Positions 40,573 through 50,100 of a DNA stretch of 64,000 nt are shown piece by piece (the stretch's first letter is position 1; every line of letters starts with the position of its first letter). The stretch is taken from positions 1 through 64,000 of the forward strand of contig JAHFST010000002.1 in assembly GCA_023265625.1 (NCBI GenBank), read 5' to 3'. The DNA comes from Deltaproteobacteria bacterium. GTDB taxonomy: Bacteria; UBA10199; JACPAL01; JAHFST01. Under the pieces are notes generated by a model. It did not search any database. It was not told the DNA's origin and saw nothing but the letters and a program-made list of their open reading frames with translations. The translations under genes were made by a program, and so were the position numbers.

Positions 40573-40893
40573 TTACGGCACGACACCGTTGGTGCCGTGA
40601 CAGGAGGCGCAGCTGCTCAACCCTTCATCCAAGGCCTGTTGGTAGATTGCTTGGATGTCGATCGGAAGCCCGGTGCGGTTTTCCAAATGAATATTTTCGA
40701 GATTGTGGCACAGGGTGCACTCGGCGCGTCCCCACCCTTCGGGATGTTCTTCCTCAGTGAGCAGTAAGCCTTGCGGGGAGGTGAGGAGGTTGCCGAAGTC
40801 TTCGCCGTCGTTGGTCGCGCTTTGGTTGCACGACGACAAGCCCATCCAAGCCGGCAGCAGGAGCAGCCATAACGCATATTTTAGTGGTTTCAT
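40573..40893 (-). CDS. Diheme cytochrome c lipoprotein
   Basis: A 106-residue lipoprotein with lipobox LSSC (Cys22). Two heme-binding motifs, CTLCH and CASCH, are present. It starts with the ATG at 40891-40893, overlapping the stop of the 7-heme gene by four bases; the longer open frame upstream is the antisense-frame shadow of that gene. It is the last gene of the four-gene multiheme operon and could relay electrons at the inner or outer membrane surface. Confidence 0.88.
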   Translation of the reverse strand: MKPLKYALWLLLLPAWMGLSSCNQSATNDGEDFGNLLTSPQGLLLTEEEHPEGWGRAECTLCHNLENIHLENRTGLPIDIQAIYQQALDEGLSSCASCHGTNGVVP

Positions 40894-41462
40894 CGGATCG
40901 ATGTCCCCCTTCCTGCATGGCAGCTCTGGCAATAGTCGACGGTGTGGCAGGCATCGCATCGGTGCGGATTGGATCGGGCCTCGATCGAATGAAAGAAACG
41001 GAAATTTCGCGGGTGCATCCGAGTTTGGATGGTATCGCGCCGGCTGTGGCAATTGAGACAAAACATCGCATTGGTGTGGCATTGGACGCACTCCTGGGGA
41101 TTTTGCTTGGCATAGACTTGGTGCTTGTTTAGCCAGTCGGTCAGGTGACTCTTGGGTTTGGGCGGGATTTTGCCGTGACAGACGGTGCACTCGTTCGTGG
41201 CTGCCAGGGGTGGGTTGGGGTTATTGTGACAGAGGTGGCACCCCATTTTGTTGATTTTTTCCCGGTTGCCAAAAGAATCTGGGTCGGCATGGCAGGTTTC
41301 GCAAGCGACCGAGGCCGCTTCAAAGAGCGGCGTGTGCATCTCATGGTCGTAGAGGTCGAATGGGTGCGGTTTCTTTTTTCCCCGAGCGGCCAGGGAAAGA
41401 CCCGAAAACAGGATAATGAGACAGAGGCCAGCGATGGTGATGCGCTTAAATTTTGTGTCCAT
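40890..41462 (-). CDS. Periplasmic heptaheme cytochrome c
   Basis: About 190 residues with a signal peptide (ITIAGLCLIILFSGLSLAARG). It has seven CxxCH motifs: CETCH, CHLCH, CTVCH, CVQCH, CLNCH, CDACH and CQSCH. I prefer MDTKFKRI at 41460-41462 as start; MITT at 41474 is an alternative. Either start overlaps the 3' end of the barrel gene. The spacing of paired hemes resembles small periplasmic electron shuttles. It probably delivers electrons to the barrel-cytochrome conduit encoded upstream. Confidence 0.9.
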   Translation of the reverse strand: MDTKFKRITIAGLCLIILFSGLSLAARGKKKPHPFDLYDHEMHTPLFEAASVACETCHADPDSFGNREKINKMGCHLCHNNPNPPLAATNECTVCHGKIPPKPKSHLTDWLNKHQVYAKQNPQECVQCHTNAMFCLNCHSRRDTIQTRMHPRNFRFFHSIEARSNPHRCDACHTVDYCQSCHAGRGTSIR

Positions 41463-42681
41463 AGTGGTAATCAATCCTCATGGAACCGCGAACGTCACGG
41501 GTCAGCAGGTTGTTATTGTTGTATTCGATGCCAGCGGCAAGGGTCCAATCCTTCAGAATCTCATATCCGGTCCAAAAATTACTCGAGAAGGCGATGTCAT
41601 TGTCATTGGTGATCTTCCGATAGCTCGCGAAATCGACCGCCGCATCGATGAACCATCGTTCGGTGAGATCTTCATGGGCCGAGAGACGCACGCCCTGCGC
41701 GTTACCACCGAAACTGCGGGACAGATAGTAACTTGGCTGAAAATAAAGCCCGATCGTTTCCCATGAGACGGGGAGTCCAACCTCCAAGAGGTGACCGTTG
41801 CGCCGGTCGTTTTTGTGAGCCTCGATGCTCTGGTAGGCATAGCTTTCAACCAGTTGCAGATAGCGGGTGAAGGTCCATGTGGAGGAGAAACGCCAAGTCA
41901 ACATGTGACCTTGAGTAAACAGGCCGAGAATCGTGGGGCGGTTGGTGTCTCGGTTCACATTGAAATAGTTGAATTCCGTATTCAGGGCGAGCCAGCGGGT
42001 CGGGTAGAGATCAATCCCGGCGGTCCCGGTGTTTAGCACCTTGGCGGTCGTATCATATTCGGCCAGGGCATAGAGTGTCTGGGTGCCTTGAAACTGTTGG
42101 GATAGGTCGAGCCCAACCAGGAATGCGTCATTACGTCTCAGATCGTTGAGGCGGGTGTTGTTCTTCTGCCACGCCGCATGAAGCCGCACGCGGGTATGCG
42201 CTAGGTCGCGCAGCCCCACTGAGAGACCGGTGATCAGACCGTCGTTTTGATTGAAGTCGCCTCGTTCCACGCTGCGGGGAATGCCCGAGTAAACGCCGAT
42301 CTCTAACAATCGGTGCGGGTAGAACGTCGTTTGGATCCCGTCGAGCATCTGCACTGAAAAACCCTGATTGACGAATTGGCGGCCAAAGTCGACTTGAACG
42401 GACTCGACCGGTCGAAAATGAAGCAGCGCCTGGTAGAGGTCGTAGTCATGCAGCGATTGCTGAAAGTCCCGAACATAGCGCATATCGGTCTGGACGCCCA
42501 ATTGCCATTTGCCAATTTCCGCAACCCCCAGACCAAGGTATTCATTGATGGGGAGTTCTTGCCGACCATTCACGGCCTCACGGGCCTGACCCAAGGTCGT
42601 GGTGTCCCATTGCAAAGAGGCGGCCTGTAGGGGAGCCGCGAGGCAGAGGAGGGAACACAAGAGGGGAGCGTAGTTTTTCAT
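41446..42681 (-). CDS. Outer-membrane beta-barrel (porin-like) protein of the cytochrome operon
   Basis: A 411-residue secreted protein (signal MKNYAPLLCSLLCLAAPLQA). The mature part has some 16-20 amphipathic strands with girdle aromatics, for example WQLGVQTDMRYVRDF, VQVDFGRQFVNQGFSV, MLTWRFSSTWTFTRYLQLVESYAYQS and IGLYFQPSYYLSRSF. No heme motif is present. It starts three bases after the stop of the 33-heme gene. By analogy with MtrB/PioB/Geobacter porins it would hold cytochromes across the outer membrane; sequence identity to those families is not evident from reading alone. Confidence 0.82.
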   Translation of the reverse strand: MKNYAPLLCSLLCLAAPLQAASLQWDTTTLGQAREAVNGRQELPINEYLGLGVAEIGKWQLGVQTDMRYVRDFQQSLHDYDLYQALLHFRPVESVQVDFGRQFVNQGFSVQMLDGIQTTFYPHRLLEIGVYSGIPRSVERGDFNQNDGLITGLSVGLRDLAHTRVRLHAAWQKNNTRLNDLRRNDAFLVGLDLSQQFQGTQTLYALAEYDTTAKVLNTGTAGIDLYPTRWLALNTEFNYFNVNRDTNRPTILGLFTQGHMLTWRFSSTWTFTRYLQLVESYAYQSIEAHKNDRRNGHLLEVGLPVSWETIGLYFQPSYYLSRSFGGNAQGVRLSAHEDLTERWFIDAAVDFASYRKITNDNDIAFSSNFWTGYEILKDWTLAAGIEYNNNNLLTRDVRGSMRIDYHYGHKI

Positions 42682-42684
42682 ATT

Positions 42685-45600
42685 TTATTCCTCACACAAC
42701 GCCGGGTCATTCTGACAAGGATCGGTGTATGGTACCGGCGGACAATCGGGTAATTTGGGTGCCGGTGGTTTCGTGGTACCGTGGCAGTAACTGCCGCAGA
42801 GCCCATCCTTGTTTCCGTTGCTGTTGTAAGAGCGATAGCCGTCAAAATGACAGGAACCGGCCGTCCCCCCGCCGCAGGTATTGCCGATAGCCGCGGTCCA
42901 CAAGGGACTGTTGGTTGGGGTGATTCCGATGACCGGTGTGACCCCGTCTTTGGTGGAAAACAGCGGGCTATAAAAGAGGAAAAAGGCGTGGGACCAATTG
43001 GTGATCTTGGGCGGTCCGCACTGGTTCGTGACCACCGGTTCCCACGCTGCATCCTCATAGCTGACATGCGGGTAGGCCCAGTGGCAGGTGTAACAGAGTG
43101 ACTGTGATTTGAGCGAGGCCTTCGTGTCCGTCGGTTGGAAGGGGAGCGGACCGCCATGGCATTGTTGACAGGTCGCATTGTAACTTTTTCCATGACCGGC
43201 GCCGGTTGCCCATCCCGAGGCGGGATGAGGATAGCCCGCATGACACTGGGAACAAGAAACCTTCGAGCCTCCTCCGTCCAGCGCGGCGCCATGACAACCC
43301 TGGCAGCCTCCCTTTGCCTTCTCGAAGGTGTTGGCCCCCGGCAGGCCCAGGACATATTTTCCATGCTGGGTCTTTTCTTTCCAACCCGACTCATGGGGAT
43401 AGCTGGCATGACAGCTCTTGCATCCTTGGCTGGCGGTACCCGCCTGGTCCTCATTCTTGTGGCAGGTTTGGCATTCGGCGATCTTGCCCGCGGTATTCAA
43501 GATCATCGTGCCATGCCCCTCCTTGTTCTGCCAATTGGGATCGGTGTGGGGATAGCTGGCATGGCATTGGGTGCAGGAGACCTTGGAATGGCCCCCCTTG
43601 AGGTCGTTTCCATGACAGAGTTTGCAACTAGTCTTGTCATTCTTGAGCGTCTCCAAGACGAATTTTCCGTGACCTTCCCCTTGTTTCCAGTTGGGAACCG
43701 TGTGCGGATAATTTTCATGACAACTCTTGCAGCTCTTGTTGGAGATCCCTCCCGTGTAGTCAGTCCCATGGCAGGTCTGGCATTCCGTCATTTTTTTACC
43801 CGTGGGATCGCCCAGCAGGTACTGGCCATGCCCTTGAAAGGTCCCCCAGCTGACCGGTTCAATGCCCGCTGATTGATGCTTCAAATAGCTGGGATGGCAG
43901 CTTTTGCACGATTGAAAGCCGTTGGGCGCCTTGTCCAGGCCGCTGCCATGACACGTTTTGCAAATTTTTATATCCTGTTTGGCCAAGGGGCCATGGACCC
44001 ACCCCGAATCCCAATCGGCGGGATGGGGATACGTTTTGTGGCAGCCGTTGCAGCCAATCCCCTGGGCTACTCCCGGGATGGGTGACAAATCGGTGCCATG
44101 ACAGTGGGCCGTGGCGCACGAGGTGTTGCCATTGGTGACCACGTACGAGCCATGCTGGTTGGATTGTTTCCAGTTGGCGGTATGAGGGTAAGGGGGGTGA
44201 CAGCTGAAACACGAGGGATTTTTGCCCCCTTTGAAATCATTCCCATGGCATGGCGCGCATTCCGTTCGGGAATGGAGCAGGGTGTATTGCCCATGCCCTT
44301 CATAATCGCGCCACGCCTTTCCCTCCGATTTATTGAAGGACTGATTCAATGTTTTGTGCGGAAACGAGGCATGACAGCTGAAGCAATTATAACCGTCCTG
44401 TTTGACGGTCAGGTCCGCGCCGTGGCATAGCGTGCACGTTTGCACACTCCCTTGATAGGCGGTTTGGACCCGCTCGCCATGTCCGCCTTGGAAGGGGACC
44501 CATAATTTTTTCTCGGGATGGGGATAGTCCGCGTGACAGGAGTAACAATTTTTCCCGCCCAACATTTTCTGAAAGTCATTGCCATGACACTCTTGGCAGA
44601 CGGTTTTGCCCAGGGTTGTAGCGGTGCTGCCATGCTCTTTCAGCCAGGTGGCGGGATGGGGATAGATCTGGTGGCAACTGTTACACGAGACCTCCGAGAT
44701 GCCCCCCTTGAGGTCGCTGCCGTGGCATTGCGTCGCGCACTCTTCCTGGCCATTTTGCAAGACAAAGGCGCCATGCGCGTTTTTATCCCCCCAGCCTGGA
44801 GCGTGAGGGTAGTTGTCGTGGCACTGATAACAGCTCGTCTGGCTGTTTCCACCCTTGAGATCGGCGCCGTGACAAACCTGGCAAAGCTCTTTGCCCCGCT
44901 TCTTGACGGCCATCCCATGTTCTATTGCCTCCGACCAATTGTCATTGTGGGGATAGGTGGTGTGGCATTGTGTGCAGGATACTCCGGAGATTCCCCCCTT
45001 GAGGTCGCTGCCGTGACATTGGGTGGCGCAGCCGGCCTGACCGTTTTTCAGAACAGCGGCCCCATGCTGGGCGGGATCCTCCCAACCCTCTTCATGCGGA
45101 TAGGTGGTGTGACACTGAAAACAGCCTACGTTGCTGTCCCCACCTTTTAAGTCCGCTCCGTGACACGCACGGCAAAGCGACTTATTATTTCCTTTCGCCA
45201 GGATGCCATGCTTTTCTGGCGTTCGCCAATTGGCGGTGTGTGGGTAGACGGAGTGACAGAGATTGCATGAGACCTGGGAGAGACCTCCCTGCAGATCGGG
45301 GCCATGACACTGGGTTGCGCAGGAAGACTTACCATTTTTCAGCGCCCATTGTCCGTGCTGATCCTTGTTCACCCAGTTTTTTGGGTGGGGAAATTGGTTA
45401 TGACAGGAGGTACAGGCTGGCGGAGCCCCTTTTTGCGCATCGGTCTTGTGGCATTGTAAACAGGCATCAAAGCCATACTGCTGGGCGGCCGGACCATGTT
45501 TTTGGGGTTCTTTCCATCCCTCGGGATGTGGAAAAATGGGGGGGAGGGGGGTGCTGCTATCCGGCGATATGCCGGAACTGTCTACCGTATCCCCTGAGGG

Positions 45601-45699
45601 ATTACCGGCATCGGCCCCGCCCGAGCGCAACTTATCTTGCGCGCATCCGACCAGGACCAACAGGATCAATGGGACAAATGTTTTCACCAATGATCTCAT
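42685..45699 (-). CDS. Giant multiheme c-type cytochrome lipoprotein (33 heme motifs)
   Basis: A 1004-residue lipoprotein (signal ending LVLVGC, Cys19). By direct count it has 33 heme-binding motifs: 28 CxxCH, four CxxxCH (three CATQCH and CGSYCH) and one CxxxxCH (CATAHCH). About 16 tandem modules of 45-60 residues repeat the pattern HG...C..CHG.DLKGG.S.VSC.QCH..YPH...W, each carrying two hemes. Residues 20-55 are a Ser/Asp-rich linker and the last 130 residues carry one heme. It is first in an operon with a barrel protein and two smaller cytochromes. It is probably a surface-exposed electron conductor for metal, mineral or interspecies electron transfer. Confidence 0.93.
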   Translation of the reverse strand: MRSLVKTFVPLILLVLVGCAQDKLRSGGADAGNPSGDTVDSSGISPDSSTPLPPIFPHPEGWKEPQKHGPAAQQYGFDACLQCHKTDAQKGAPPACTSCHNQFPHPKNWVNKDQHGQWALKNGKSSCATQCHGPDLQGGLSQVSCNLCHSVYPHTANWRTPEKHGILAKGNNKSLCRACHGADLKGGDSNVGCFQCHTTYPHEEGWEDPAQHGAAVLKNGQAGCATQCHGSDLKGGISGVSCTQCHTTYPHNDNWSEAIEHGMAVKKRGKELCQVCHGADLKGGNSQTSCYQCHDNYPHAPGWGDKNAHGAFVLQNGQEECATQCHGSDLKGGISEVSCNSCHQIYPHPATWLKEHGSTATTLGKTVCQECHGNDFQKMLGGKNCYSCHADYPHPEKKLWVPFQGGHGERVQTAYQGSVQTCTLCHGADLTVKQDGYNCFSCHASFPHKTLNQSFNKSEGKAWRDYEGHGQYTLLHSRTECAPCHGNDFKGGKNPSCFSCHPPYPHTANWKQSNQHGSYVVTNGNTSCATAHCHGTDLSPIPGVAQGIGCNGCHKTYPHPADWDSGWVHGPLAKQDIKICKTCHGSGLDKAPNGFQSCKSCHPSYLKHQSAGIEPVSWGTFQGHGQYLLGDPTGKKMTECQTCHGTDYTGGISNKSCKSCHENYPHTVPNWKQGEGHGKFVLETLKNDKTSCKLCHGNDLKGGHSKVSCTQCHASYPHTDPNWQNKEGHGTMILNTAGKIAECQTCHKNEDQAGTASQGCKSCHASYPHESGWKEKTQHGKYVLGLPGANTFEKAKGGCQGCHGAALDGGGSKVSCSQCHAGYPHPASGWATGAGHGKSYNATCQQCHGGPLPFQPTDTKASLKSQSLCYTCHWAYPHVSYEDAAWEPVVTNQCGPPKITNWSHAFFLFYSPLFSTKDGVTPVIGITPTNSPLWTAAIGNTCGGGTAGSCHFDGYRSYNSNGNKDGLCGSYCHGTTKPPAPKLPDCPPVPYTDPCQNDPALCEE

Positions 45700-45793: not shown

Positions 45794-47929
45794 CTAGAGA
45801 CCTGCTCGCTTGAGTCTCAGGGCATTGGCTATCACCGAAACAGAACTCAAACTCATGGCGAGAGCGGCGATCATTGGGTTCAGGAGTAGCCCAAAAAATG
45901 GATACAGCACTCCCGCGGCAATGGGGACACCGAGGGTGTTGTAAGCAAACGCAAAGAAGAGGTTTTGTTTAATGTTGCGCATGGTGGCCCGACTCAGATG
46001 CCTGGCGCGCACTATGCCGCGCAGATCTCCCTTGACTAAGGTCACTCCGGCACTTTCCATGGCCACGTCCGTGCCGGTGCCCATCGCAATACCCACATGG
46101 GCTTGTGCGAGGGCCGGGGCGTCGTTGATGCCATCGCCGGCCATTGCGACTTGATAGCCTTGGGCTTGTAGTTCCGTTATTTTTTGGGCTTTTTGTTCCG
46201 GGAGGACGCCGGCGATCACGTCATCAATGCCTAACTTCTTTGCGACAAATTCGGCGGTCGTTTGATTATCACCCGTCATCATCACGATGCGAATATGATC
46301 CTCCCGCAAGGCCCGGATCGCTTCTGGCGTTGTTTCCTTGATGGGATCGGCCACTCCCAGTAACCCTGCCAGTTGCTGATTAAGCGCCACATACATCACT
46401 GTCTGTCCCTGGGAACGGAGCTCATTGACATGGGCCTCAACCGATAAAACAGCAATGCCAAGATCTTCCATGAGACTTTGATTTCCCAGGGCCACACTTT
46501 GGGTGCCAATTTTTCCTTGCACGCCTTTGCCGGTGATGGATGCGAAGCCGTCGACTTTTTCAAGCACGAGCGATTTTTCTTTTGCCGCTCTCGCAATGGC
46601 GTTGGCCAAGGGATGTTCGCTGCCGGCCTCCAGACTGGCCGCGTATTTGAGCAGATCATTGGAGGGTAAGCCTGTTTGGGGCTCCAGTGTCACCAGTTTG
46701 GGCTGGCCCAGTGTCAGTGTGCCGGTTTTATCCACCACGAGCGTATCGATCTTACGCAGTATTTCGATGGCCTCGGCATTTTTAAACAGGATGCCAAGCG
46801 TGGCCCCTTTGCCCGTCGCCACCATGATCGAAAGTGGCGTGGCGAGCCCCAGCGCGCACGGGCAGGCAATGATGAGGACGGCGACGGCATTAATGATGGC
46901 AAAGGCCATGCGCGGTTCCGGTCCAATCAGCGACCAAGTCGCAAAGCTCACCGCGGCAATCCCGATGACCACGGGCACAAAATAACTGGAAACCACGTCG
47001 GCCAATTTTTGAATGGGCGCACGGCTGCGTTGAGCCTCGGCCACCATGTGAATGATTTGCGCCAGTAGGGTGTCCGCACCGACCCTTTTGGCGGCGATAA
47101 TCACCGAGCCGGTGCCGTTGACGGTGGCGCCAATCACGGTATCGCCGATATTTTTTTCAACAGGGATCGGTTCACCGGTAATCATGGATTCATCAATGGA
47201 ACTTTGACCTTCCAGGACCATGCCGTCCACCGGCACCTTTTCACCGGGACGGACACGGATTTTATCGCTTATTTGTACTTGATCCAGTGCCACGTCTTGT
47301 TCCGTACCATCGGGATTTACTCGTCTTGCAGTCTTGGGTGATAAGCCCAGCAGGGACTTGATGGCCGCGTTGGTCTGTGATCTAGCCTTGAGTTCCAAGA
47401 CCTGCCCCAAGAGAATGAGTGTCACGATCACGGCCGCCGGTTCAAAGTAGGTCTCGACGGTGCCCGTTCCATCTATCAATGATACTGGGAACAGGGTCGG
47501 CATCAGCGTCGCGACCAAACTATAAAAATAAGCCACTCCAACTCCCAGACTGATGAGCGTAAACATGTTGAGCGAACGATTTACGAGAGATTTCCAACCA
47601 CGCACAAAGAACGGCCAGCCGCACCATAAGACTACCGGTGTCGCCAGGATCAATTCCGACCAGCGCATCCACTCATGGGAAAACATGGCGAAGATAAGCG
47701 GCATGCTAAAAACGCAGCCAACCCAAAATCTTTTTTTCATGTCTTTCAGTTCATTTTGATCATCGTCCACGGAGGCTGTCGTTGTTTCCAAGGCCATGCC
47801 GCAAAGGGGGCAGTCCCCCGGCCGGTCCCGAATGATTTCGGGATGCATCGGGCAGGTGTATTGGTGATGGGTTTGATGAGGAGGTGAAATCGACTTTACG
47901 GTCTTGCAACAAGCATGGTCTTTTTGCAT
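45794..47929 (-). CDS. copA: Copper-translocating P1B-type ATPase
   Basis: A 711-residue heavy-metal pump. An N-terminal heavy-metal-binding domain ([25 protein letters not shown], about residues 24-48) replaces the usual HMA domain. Eight membrane helices are predicted, with the ion-binding CPC in [22 protein letters not shown]. The phosphorylation motif is [22 protein letters not shown] is the A-domain, and [16 protein letters not shown] the hinge. The C-terminus [20 protein letters not shown] matches Cu+ ATPases. It exports Cu+ (or Ag+) to the periplasm, which may also serve cytochrome assembly. Confidence 0.93.
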
Positions 47930-48026: not shown

Positions 48027-49052
48027 ATGAATAAAGCTCTAAGCTTTGGTGGTTTGGTTTGGGTGTCTTGGCTTTTTTTGCAGCCAGCTTTGGCCGCATC
48101 AAACTCAGATCCCGAAGCCCAATATTGCGTTTTTGAACAGCAGGATCGTTCCAAGGTGGCCTCACGGGTTGATTGGCTCTCGATCGTCAAATGCTTGGAT
48201 GCCGCGAGCATTGCGGGGGTAGGGTGGGTCAAGATTGAAGGTCCGATGACCTACCCACAGGCTGCCTCTCTCGTAGACGCGATGCGGGTCAATGGAGGGA
48301 AGGATCCTGCCTCCGAATCGGATCGCTTTCACAGCCATTGCGATCATCATTACGTGGTTTGGAAAAATAATTCTGTGCAACCGCCCAAACGGTCTTTTTC
48401 CCGGGCCGATGCCAATCCCGGGCCGGGTTATAGCCTGGAACAACCGAATCTTTGCTGCGAGGATGCGGCGGCCATTGTTTTTCCGGATAATAACGGAGGC
48501 AGCGATTGTCGCGCCTTTGACTTGATGTCGGTGCCTGGGGTTCGAGTGTCGTTGGTGAGCCGTCGTTGGGTTTCCTTGAGCGGTCCGGTCACTATTAATC
48601 AAAATCCGCCCATCCTGCTTGCACCGCTGGCTGGAGCACCCAGCTCGTCTTCTCCCGTTAATTGGTCGGGTAGTTATCATGGCCCCTGCACTTACGAAGA
48701 CTTGAGCGTCAATTTGAAACAAACGGGCGAGGCCACCATGGAAGTGAGTCAAAAAGGTCCTCAAACCTTGACTCTCACTGCGCCTGGTGCCGCCCCGTTA
48801 GACTTAACGATCACCAGCGACCCCGCTACGGCGAAGGGGACTCTTGTGAATAAAATCGGGACTGCGGCCTCGGGCGGTGGGGCCAACATGGAGTACACGG
48901 CGGTCCTCAAGGGGGATTCGCTTTCGTTGATCATGGCGGCGATGACTGAGGGGCATCTTAACTTGTCTAACGGTTTGAACGGTACTCACAAGGGGAGTGC
49001 TTCCATGAACTGCTTGATGGTTCGGGGTGCAGCACCTAAGGATCCACGCTAA
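48027..49052 (+). CDS. Secreted cysteine-containing hypothetical protein, paralogue 1
   Basis: A 341-residue exported protein (signal GLVWVSWLFLQPALA). The N-terminal domain (to about residue 190) carries conserved Cys, His and Trp: YCVFEQQDRSKVASRVDWLSIVKC, TYPQAASLVDAMRVNGG, DRFHSHCDHHYVVWK, DANPGPGY, NLCCEDAAAIVF and CRAFDLMSVPG. The next gene shares all these blocks in order. The C-terminal domain (about 215-341) is a different, Thr/Ala-rich beta-like domain (GSYHGPCTYEDLSVNLKQTGEATMEV). AAAGGAGA precedes the ATG. I do not recognise the family. Confidence 0.8.
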   Translation: MNKALSFGGLVWVSWLFLQPALAASNSDPEAQYCVFEQQDRSKVASRVDWLSIVKCLDAASIAGVGWVKIEGPMTYPQAASLVDAMRVNGGKDPASESDRFHSHCDHHYVVWKNNSVQPPKRSFSRADANPGPGYSLEQPNLCCEDAAAIVFPDNNGGSDCRAFDLMSVPGVRVSLVSRRWVSLSGPVTINQNPPILLAPLAGAPSSSSPVNWSGSYHGPCTYEDLSVNLKQTGEATMEVSQKGPQTLTLTAPGAAPLDLTITSDPATAKGTLVNKIGTAASGGGANMEYTAVLKGDSLSLIMAAMTEGHLNLSNGLNGTHKGSASMNCLMVRGAAPKDPR

Positions 49053-49179: not shown

Positions 49180-50100
49180 ATGAAAATGATATTCCTCGAG
49201 GTTTTGAGTGTGGCTGTATTGTTTCTTCTTATGAATCGAGTGTGGGCCCAAGGGGGCGGAGAATACTGCGTCTTCGAACAGATGAATTCGAACAAGGTCA
49301 TCAGTCGCATCGATTGGCTGTCCGTCGCCAAGTGTAGTGATGGCGGCCTGTTGGCGGGCGGAGGTTTGCAATCCATCAAGCAAGGCCTGTCCTTTGCCGA
49401 GGCGGCTGCGCTTGTGGATGCGATGCGGGTGAACCTGGGGACTTCTTCTTCGGGAGAGCAGGACCGATTTCACAGCCGATGTGACCACAGTTACCAGGTC
49501 TGGAAGCGAACCGATGGCGGGTCTCCGTCCAAGGCCTATACCCACGCGGATGCCAACCCGGGTCCGGGATATGCGCCCGATGTCTCCCATCTCTGCTGCG
49601 AGGATGCGGCAGCCCTGGTGTTCCCCAAGACGGGCAACGACGATTGCCGAAGTTTTGAGCTCATGTCGGTACCAGGGGCCCTGGTGACCTTACGGAATGG
49701 GCATTGGGTGTCCTCCGCCCCGCATACGGCTATTCCGAGTCATCCCCCGATCAATCTATCTTCTGCCAGTGGAGACAGTTCAGCACCCTCCAGCCTGCAA
49801 AATGTCGGGACTTGGCACGAGTGCGAAACACTTAGCAGCGAGATCTGTGGCACCTGGACTTGGAACGCCTCCAAGAAGCAATTCGATGCCCAATGGGCCA
49901 ATGGCGCCAAGGCGCACCTCAAATTAGACAGGTTCGAATCCGACTCGGTCGTCGTGACCCGCGACGACCATGCGGGAGTTTCCGCGGGGATGATGGCAAC
50001 CTATGTGGGACAGCGCAGCGGCAATTCCATTAGCGGCAACGTCACCTGGACTTACCGGGGAGGCATGCACAAAGGCACTTGGCGGGCGGAGATTAGGTAG
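49180..50100 (+). CDS. Secreted cysteine-containing hypothetical protein, paralogue 2
   Basis: A 306-residue exported protein (signal VLSVAVLFLLMNRVWA). The N-terminal domain aligns block by block with the previous gene: YCVFEQMNSNKVISRIDWLSVAKC, SFAEAAALVDAMRVNLG, DRFHSRCDHSYQVWK, DANPGPGY, HLCCEDAAALVF and CRSFELMSVPGALV. The C-terminal domain (about 205-306) differs: GTWHECETLSSEICGTWTWNASKKQFDAQWANGAKAHLKL, which looks like a small beta-barrel. AAAAGGAG precedes the ATG. The two genes seem to be a tandem duplication with exchange of the C-terminal half. Function unknown. Confidence 0.8.
   Translation: MKMIFLEVLSVAVLFLLMNRVWAQGGGEYCVFEQMNSNKVISRIDWLSVAKCSDGGLLAGGGLQSIKQGLSFAEAAALVDAMRVNLGTSSSGEQDRFHSRCDHSYQVWKRTDGGSPSKAYTHADANPGPGYAPDVSHLCCEDAAALVFPKTGNDDCRSFELMSVPGALVTLRNGHWVSSAPHTAIPSHPPINLSSASGDSSAPSSLQNVGTWHECETLSSEICGTWTWNASKKQFDAQWANGAKAHLKLDRFESDSVVVTRDDHAGVSAGMMATYVGQRSGNSISGNVTWTYRGGMHKGTWRAEIR

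Follow-up and report, generated by a model that had tools for sequence, protein, structure and literature searches.

A gene cluster in an uncultured deltaproteobacterial lineage likely encodes a divergent porin-cytochrome conduit with a conserved diheme lipoprotein

Porin-cytochrome (Pcc) conduits, as delimited by Shi et al. 2014 (PMC4245776), consist of an outer-membrane barrel of 18–22 strands, a periplasmic cytochrome with 5–14 hemes and a surface cytochrome, encoded by adjacent genes, with atypical heme motifs in the surface cytochrome only. Group III of this class includes the clusters found in Desulfurobacterium thermolithotrophum and Thermovibrio ammonificans, and Geobacter OmbB-OmaB-OmcB belongs to the class as well (PMC4245776); four porin families (MtrB, OmbB, ExtB/E and ExtI) have been distinguished among such systems, with OmbB-like sets in Ignavibacteria (PMC7399161). 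Here, we describe a four-gene cluster on contig JAHFST010000002.1 of a bacterium labelled Deltaproteobacteria (assembly GCA_023265625.1), lying within a stretch of 64,000 nucleotides that was analysed as a whole and is called the window below. We interpret these four genes as a porin-cytochrome conduit through the outer membrane, with a probability of roughly 0.85. We regard the module as a divergent offshoot of the Pcc kind that has a fourth, conserved subunit, and its homology and genomic context make conduit function likely.

On the minus strand, the genes run in the order large multiheme cytochrome, barrel, 7-heme cytochrome and diheme lipoprotein (Table 1); 3 bases separate the first two, the barrel and 7-heme genes share 17 bases, and the 7-heme and diheme genes share 4 bases (ATGA). 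A first-pass annotation made from the sequence alone had proposed this order with spacings of 3, -17 and -4, and both the translations and the motif counts agreed with it. Consensus promoter and terminator signals around the cluster were at or near chance level, and thus the operon structure rests on the gene overlaps instead. None of the other open reading frames of at least 60 residues in the window contained a CXXCH motif. Compared to the published description of the Pcc class, the barrel had a matching number of predicted strands (22; mean predicted local distance difference test score [pLDDT] of 87 in AlphaFold2), the adjacent periplasmic cytochrome had 7 CXXCH and no CX3CH or CX4CH, and the large cytochrome combined a lipobox with 28 CXXCH and 5 atypical motifs, as is often seen in Pcc outer-membrane lipoprotein cytochromes. 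These 28 CXXCH exceed the 1–15 reported for Pcc surface cytochromes (PMC4245776).

The link between the window module and the Pcc (OmbB-type) class is indirect and runs through the cluster of D. thermolithotrophum, which contains a homologous barrel (22% identical in alignment; E 2.1e-16 and 25% identity in a single-sequence search) and, downstream of it as in the window, a homologous 7-heme cytochrome (32% identical). Unlike in the window, the next genes there encode another 7-heme protein and an inner-membrane cytochrome with 6 hemes, the latter fitting Dester_0351, and the retrieved stretch held neither a large upstream lipoprotein cytochrome nor a diheme lipoprotein.

The large cytochrome carried 33 heme motifs (28 CXXCH, 4 CX3CH and 1 CX4CH) and a lipobox-type cysteine (LVGC, Cys19), in agreement with its earlier description as a 33-heme lipoprotein; a further conserved CX7CH (CGGGTAGSCH) was left out of the 33 and corresponds to a C-terminal CX6-7CH shared by several homologues. 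When the residues of this protein were shuffled 2000 times, a mean of 0.4 and a maximum of 4 CXXCH were obtained, compared to the 28 observed. The protein is built from about 16 tandem two-heme repeats of about 50 residues (YPH..W..HG...C..CHG.DLKGG.S..SC..CH), contains 71 His, and matched Pfam Cytochrome_C7/Cytochrom_c3_2 repeats over the cut-off. The large cytochromes adjacent to the barrels of relatives were 30–41% identical to it, and those of the close group had between 9 and 33 motifs. Its CX3CH sites (CATQCHG) were spaced 97 residues apart, that is, at every second repeat, and were followed by CATA[HN]CHG; homologues at 35–41% identity had atypical motifs at closely matching repeat positions, and this recurrence argues that the CX3CH and CX4CH motifs bind heme.

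Sec-type signal cleavage of the barrel protein, predicted at about LQA/A, would leave about 391 mature residues, close to the figure of about 390 given previously. The AlphaFold2 model of the barrel (from 21 aligned sequences) had a predicted template modelling score of 0.74, and a Foldseek search with this model returned outer-membrane barrels such as pilus ushers, Occ porins and AlgE; MtrB was absent among the 50 matches listed. The barrel sequence had no match in Pfam, NCBIfam or PDB chains, and a few of its homologues matched generic porin or barrel models weakly.

The two smaller cytochromes also fitted the first-pass annotation, which had called them a 7-heme periplasmic protein and a 2-heme lipoprotein. 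Shuffled residues of the 7-heme protein, which has a signal peptide, gave a mean of 0.09 and a maximum of 2 CXXCH, compared to the 7 observed, and its 16 His are sufficient for bis-His ligation. Homologues 32–65% identical to it were present next to all readable barrels in the close group. PDB profile matches of this protein (MtrF, a 16-heme cytochrome and others) were discounted, because CXXCH spacing alone can yield such scores. The diheme lipoprotein has a lipobox-type cysteine (LSSC, Cys22) and was 46–58% identical to its counterparts in most class members. Its only 4 His (H50, H63, H69 and H99) and both CXXCH were invariant in an alignment of 17 sequences, leaving room for two bis-His hemes.

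An initial search of 99 genomes (E ≤ 0.001) found barrel homologues in 22, and a profile search of 385 genomes gave matches in 50, comprising 21 of the 46 genomes of the host class and others outside it, in other phyla. One class member, represented by contig JACQOY010000036.1, is labelled Deltaproteobacteria and came from groundwater; a scan of genome contigs gave one homologous contig only. The surroundings of the relatives' loci, several of which end at contig ends, were retrieved, and genes and motifs were called by script. As the first-pass annotation had suggested checking, the same four-gene order was found elsewhere, being the usual one in the close group and present in many class members. 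At one locus the large cytochrome gene lay on the opposite strand, and two loci had two large cytochromes each; outside the class, cytochromes of 5 to 14 CXXCH lay downstream of the barrel. By the script's rule, 35 of 41 barrels had a downstream same-strand gene, with at least 4 CXXCH in 34 of these and a contig end after 3 CXXCH in the 35th (L041). Three further barrels also had a downstream multiheme gene, with an overlap longer than the rule allowed, and the remaining 3 sit at contig ends. No barrel homologue without an adjacent multiheme gene was seen among the loci with a readable neighbour.

The barrel, 7-heme and diheme proteins also diverged together. Pairwise divergence of the barrel was rank-correlated with that of the 7-heme protein (0.85, 20 loci) and of the diheme lipoprotein (0.80, 16 loci), values reached by 0 of 2000 permutations in either case and due in part to the shared descent of the hosts. 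Among the 10–11 closest loci, the correlation was 0.79 for the barrel and 7-heme protein and weaker, at 0.42 (permutation 0.04), for the barrel and diheme lipoprotein. At two loci, 12 CXXCH (L041:320-2497) or 4 CXXCH (L043:7382-9040) precede a barrel of the window's family N-terminally in a single chain, and at three others (L038, L040 and L042) a homologue retaining only the last four hemes takes the place of the 7-heme protein. The predicted 22-strand barrel, the conserved gene order, the multiheme gene after every readable barrel, the barrel-heme fusions and the correlated divergence all favour the outer-membrane electron conduit that was first proposed for this cluster, from which we infer a role in extracellular electron transfer.

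Table 1. Coordinates of the conduit genes and of nearby features in the window.
Feature	Position	Strand	Details
Large multiheme c-type cytochrome, predicted outer-membrane lipoprotein	42685..45699	-	1004 aa; positions of all four conduit genes include the stop codon
Outer-membrane beta-barrel (porin-like) subunit	41446..42681	-	411 aa, no heme motif
Periplasmic 7-heme c-type cytochrome	40890..41462	-	190 aa from ATG, signal peptide
Small diheme lipoprotein	40573..40893	-	106 aa, 2 CXXCH
Heavy-metal P-type ATPase	45794-47929	-	HMBD domain; ends 94 bases upstream of the cluster
Predicted secreted protein	48027-49052		No Pfam match
Predicted secreted protein, adjacent paralogue	49180-50100		No Pfam match; the pair 43% identical over 270 aa

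In the window, the neighbours of the cluster are the P-type ATPase gene, whose position makes co-transcription with the conduit genes possible, and a carbonic anhydrase gene. Two adjacent genes for paralogous secreted proteins were also predicted (Table 1).

In the mechanism that we propose, periplasmic electrons would arrive at the outer membrane, where the diheme lipoprotein, anchored in that membrane and probably facing the periplasm, would pass them to the 7-heme cytochrome. Held inside the 22-strand barrel, the 7-heme cytochrome would act as an insulated wire and deliver electrons to the large lipoprotein cytochrome at the outer face. The two-heme repeats of the latter may spread or store charge and would pass electrons to an acceptor outside the cell, with Fe(III) as the likeliest candidate. 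For this outward route to Fe(III) specifically, our confidence is much lower than for the conduit itself, at slightly better than even odds.

In relatives, the neighbours of the module suggest that quinol drives the electrons outward and that iron is the likely target. At six loci the module adjoined genes for NrfD, a 4Fe-4S protein and/or a tetraheme protein with a membrane anchor, and at two others sets related to this type; FeoB and a DtxR/FeoA-type repressor were found beside it at three loci, and protoporphyrinogen oxidase, a late heme-synthesis enzyme, at five (two by family match, three as homologues). Several observations weigh against parts of the proposed mechanism. AlphaFold2 modelled the 7-heme protein poorly (pLDDT 66), which bears on its proposed insertion into the barrel; the window neighbours are a metal P-type ATPase and a carbonic anhydrase. 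In the bacterium's own genome, neither NapC/NirT nor, in a search without a positive control, the tetraheme quinol dehydrogenase of relatives was found; its only NrfD belongs to an alternative complex III cluster with a pentaheme subunit on another contig (G000:C16), and its FeoB is likewise on a different contig from the module. Moreover, Fe(III) reduction is absent from some carriers of Pcc clusters (PMC4245776).

The same conduit might be run inward, taking electrons from a donor outside the cell, for example Fe(II), and supplying them to a terminal oxidase. Sequence does not give the direction of flow, analogous Pio/Mto conduits run inward in Fe(II) oxidisers, and the genome encodes, in addition to alternative complex III, a second conduit-like set (L097:4487-9557, same coordinates in G000:C25) adjoining aa3-type oxidase genes. 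This set comprises a 456-aa barrel, which matched the window barrel profile weakly (E about 1e-4), a 9-heme protein and a 982-aa lipoprotein with 8 CXXCH; similar 9-heme sets occurred at two other loci. However, in relatives the module is tied to quinol modules of the NrfD/Fe-S/tetraheme type as well as to FeoB and an iron repressor, no known Fe(II) oxidiser had a Pcc cluster in the study of Shi et al. 2014 (PMC4245776), and no OmbB-type set was present in 73 genomes of iron-oxidising bacteria (PMC5566968), such that we consider inward flow unlikely.

Even if electrons leave the cell, elemental sulfur, Mn(IV), humics or a partner cell may take the place of Fe(III) as the acceptor. Among named relatives, the closest one reduces sulfur, and Shi et al. 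proposed sulfur as its acceptor (PMC4245776), but the iron-handling neighbours in several class members make such an alternative doubtful. That the barrel is an ordinary solute porin lying by chance among cytochrome genes, with the cytochromes storing electrons or forming a periplasmic network, appears highly improbable: although solute porins were among the Foldseek matches, barrel and multiheme genes were adjacent without exception across many genera and in several phyla, and neither the correlated divergence of barrel and heme proteins nor the barrel-heme fusions fit a chance neighbour.

Overall, the cluster looks like a familiar type of machine, found here in an unstudied lineage and supplemented by a small, strongly conserved part. 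What is new is the diheme lipoprotein as a conserved fourth subunit, the atypical motifs at fixed repeat positions and the 4-heme wire of three relatives. The Pcc conduit is thereby extended to an uncultured class, whose members would be expected to exchange electrons with minerals or partners. A single barrel family also appears with a natural series of wires of 4, 7 and 9–14 hemes, either separate or fused to the barrel, which opens to comparative testing the question of how many hemes an outer-membrane crossing requires. A bolder proposal, which we put forward only tentatively and think improbable as a whole, is that the module forms a Pcc type of its own, with four subunits and a wire that requires the diheme lipoprotein, that the tetraheme and diheme proteins of L038, L040 and L042 carry electrons through the barrel, and that the fixed CX3CH/CX4CH sites of the large cytochrome carry real hemes with a tuning different from the others. 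If true, the tetraheme and diheme proteins of these three loci would form an unusually short trans-outer-membrane heme chain.

Compared to Geobacter OmbB-OmaB-OmcB, considered here by the description of its proteins, the window likewise combines in one cluster a porin-like barrel, a periplasmic cytochrome and an outer-membrane lipoprotein cytochrome. The large cytochrome gene comes first in the window and last in Geobacter, the periplasmic subunit has 7 rather than 8 hemes, the surface subunit has 33 motifs rather than 12 hemes, and the diheme lipoprotein is extra. The first-pass annotation had set the module apart from OmbB/OmaB/OmcB, which is borne out by these differences but not by the barrel and 7-heme pair, given its homology to the D. 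thermolithotrophum Pcc cluster. Geobacter ExtABCD, ExtEFG and ExtHIJKL (PMC6148476) also pair a barrel with periplasmic and lipoprotein cytochromes, including a small lipoprotein cytochrome in ExtC, with heme numbers (12+5+12 or 5+12) unlike those of the window. None of the curated NCBIfam models for the Ext operon (selenite/tellurite) reached its cut-off; the large cytochrome scored 15.5 bits to ExtN (cut-off 200), and the barrel and 7-heme protein had no match to these models.

MtrCAB, MtoAB and PioAB, in which a barrel, a multiheme wire and a surface cytochrome act together, would work like the window set. The window has a smaller barrel and a wire of 7 hemes in place of decaheme MtrA, and MtrB_PioB (PF11854) had no match in the 21 barrels or in the bacterium's own genome, as expected from the earlier remark that the module does not resemble MtrCAB; membership of the MtrCAB family was excluded on the absence of this match and on 7 motifs instead of 10. 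Separately, two class members were found to have MtrB_PioB-type barrels in addition to the module described here, giving two unrelated conduit types per genome. The PCC3 systems (PMC5566968) share with the window a surface cytochrome with many hemes in repeats and differ in their porins of up to 42 strands (22 in the window), a heme-rich periplasmic cytochrome (7 hemes in the window) and a conserved inner-membrane protein, no gene for which was found among the window neighbours. Finally, unlike Cyc2, the window barrel lacks CXXCH and is separate from its heme protein, whereas its relatives at L041 and L043, with 4–12 motifs N-terminal to the barrel, are fused as are Cyc2 and GM18_3465 of Geobacter M18, and these fusions are possibly an evolutionary parallel to the Cyc2-like porin-cytochromes.

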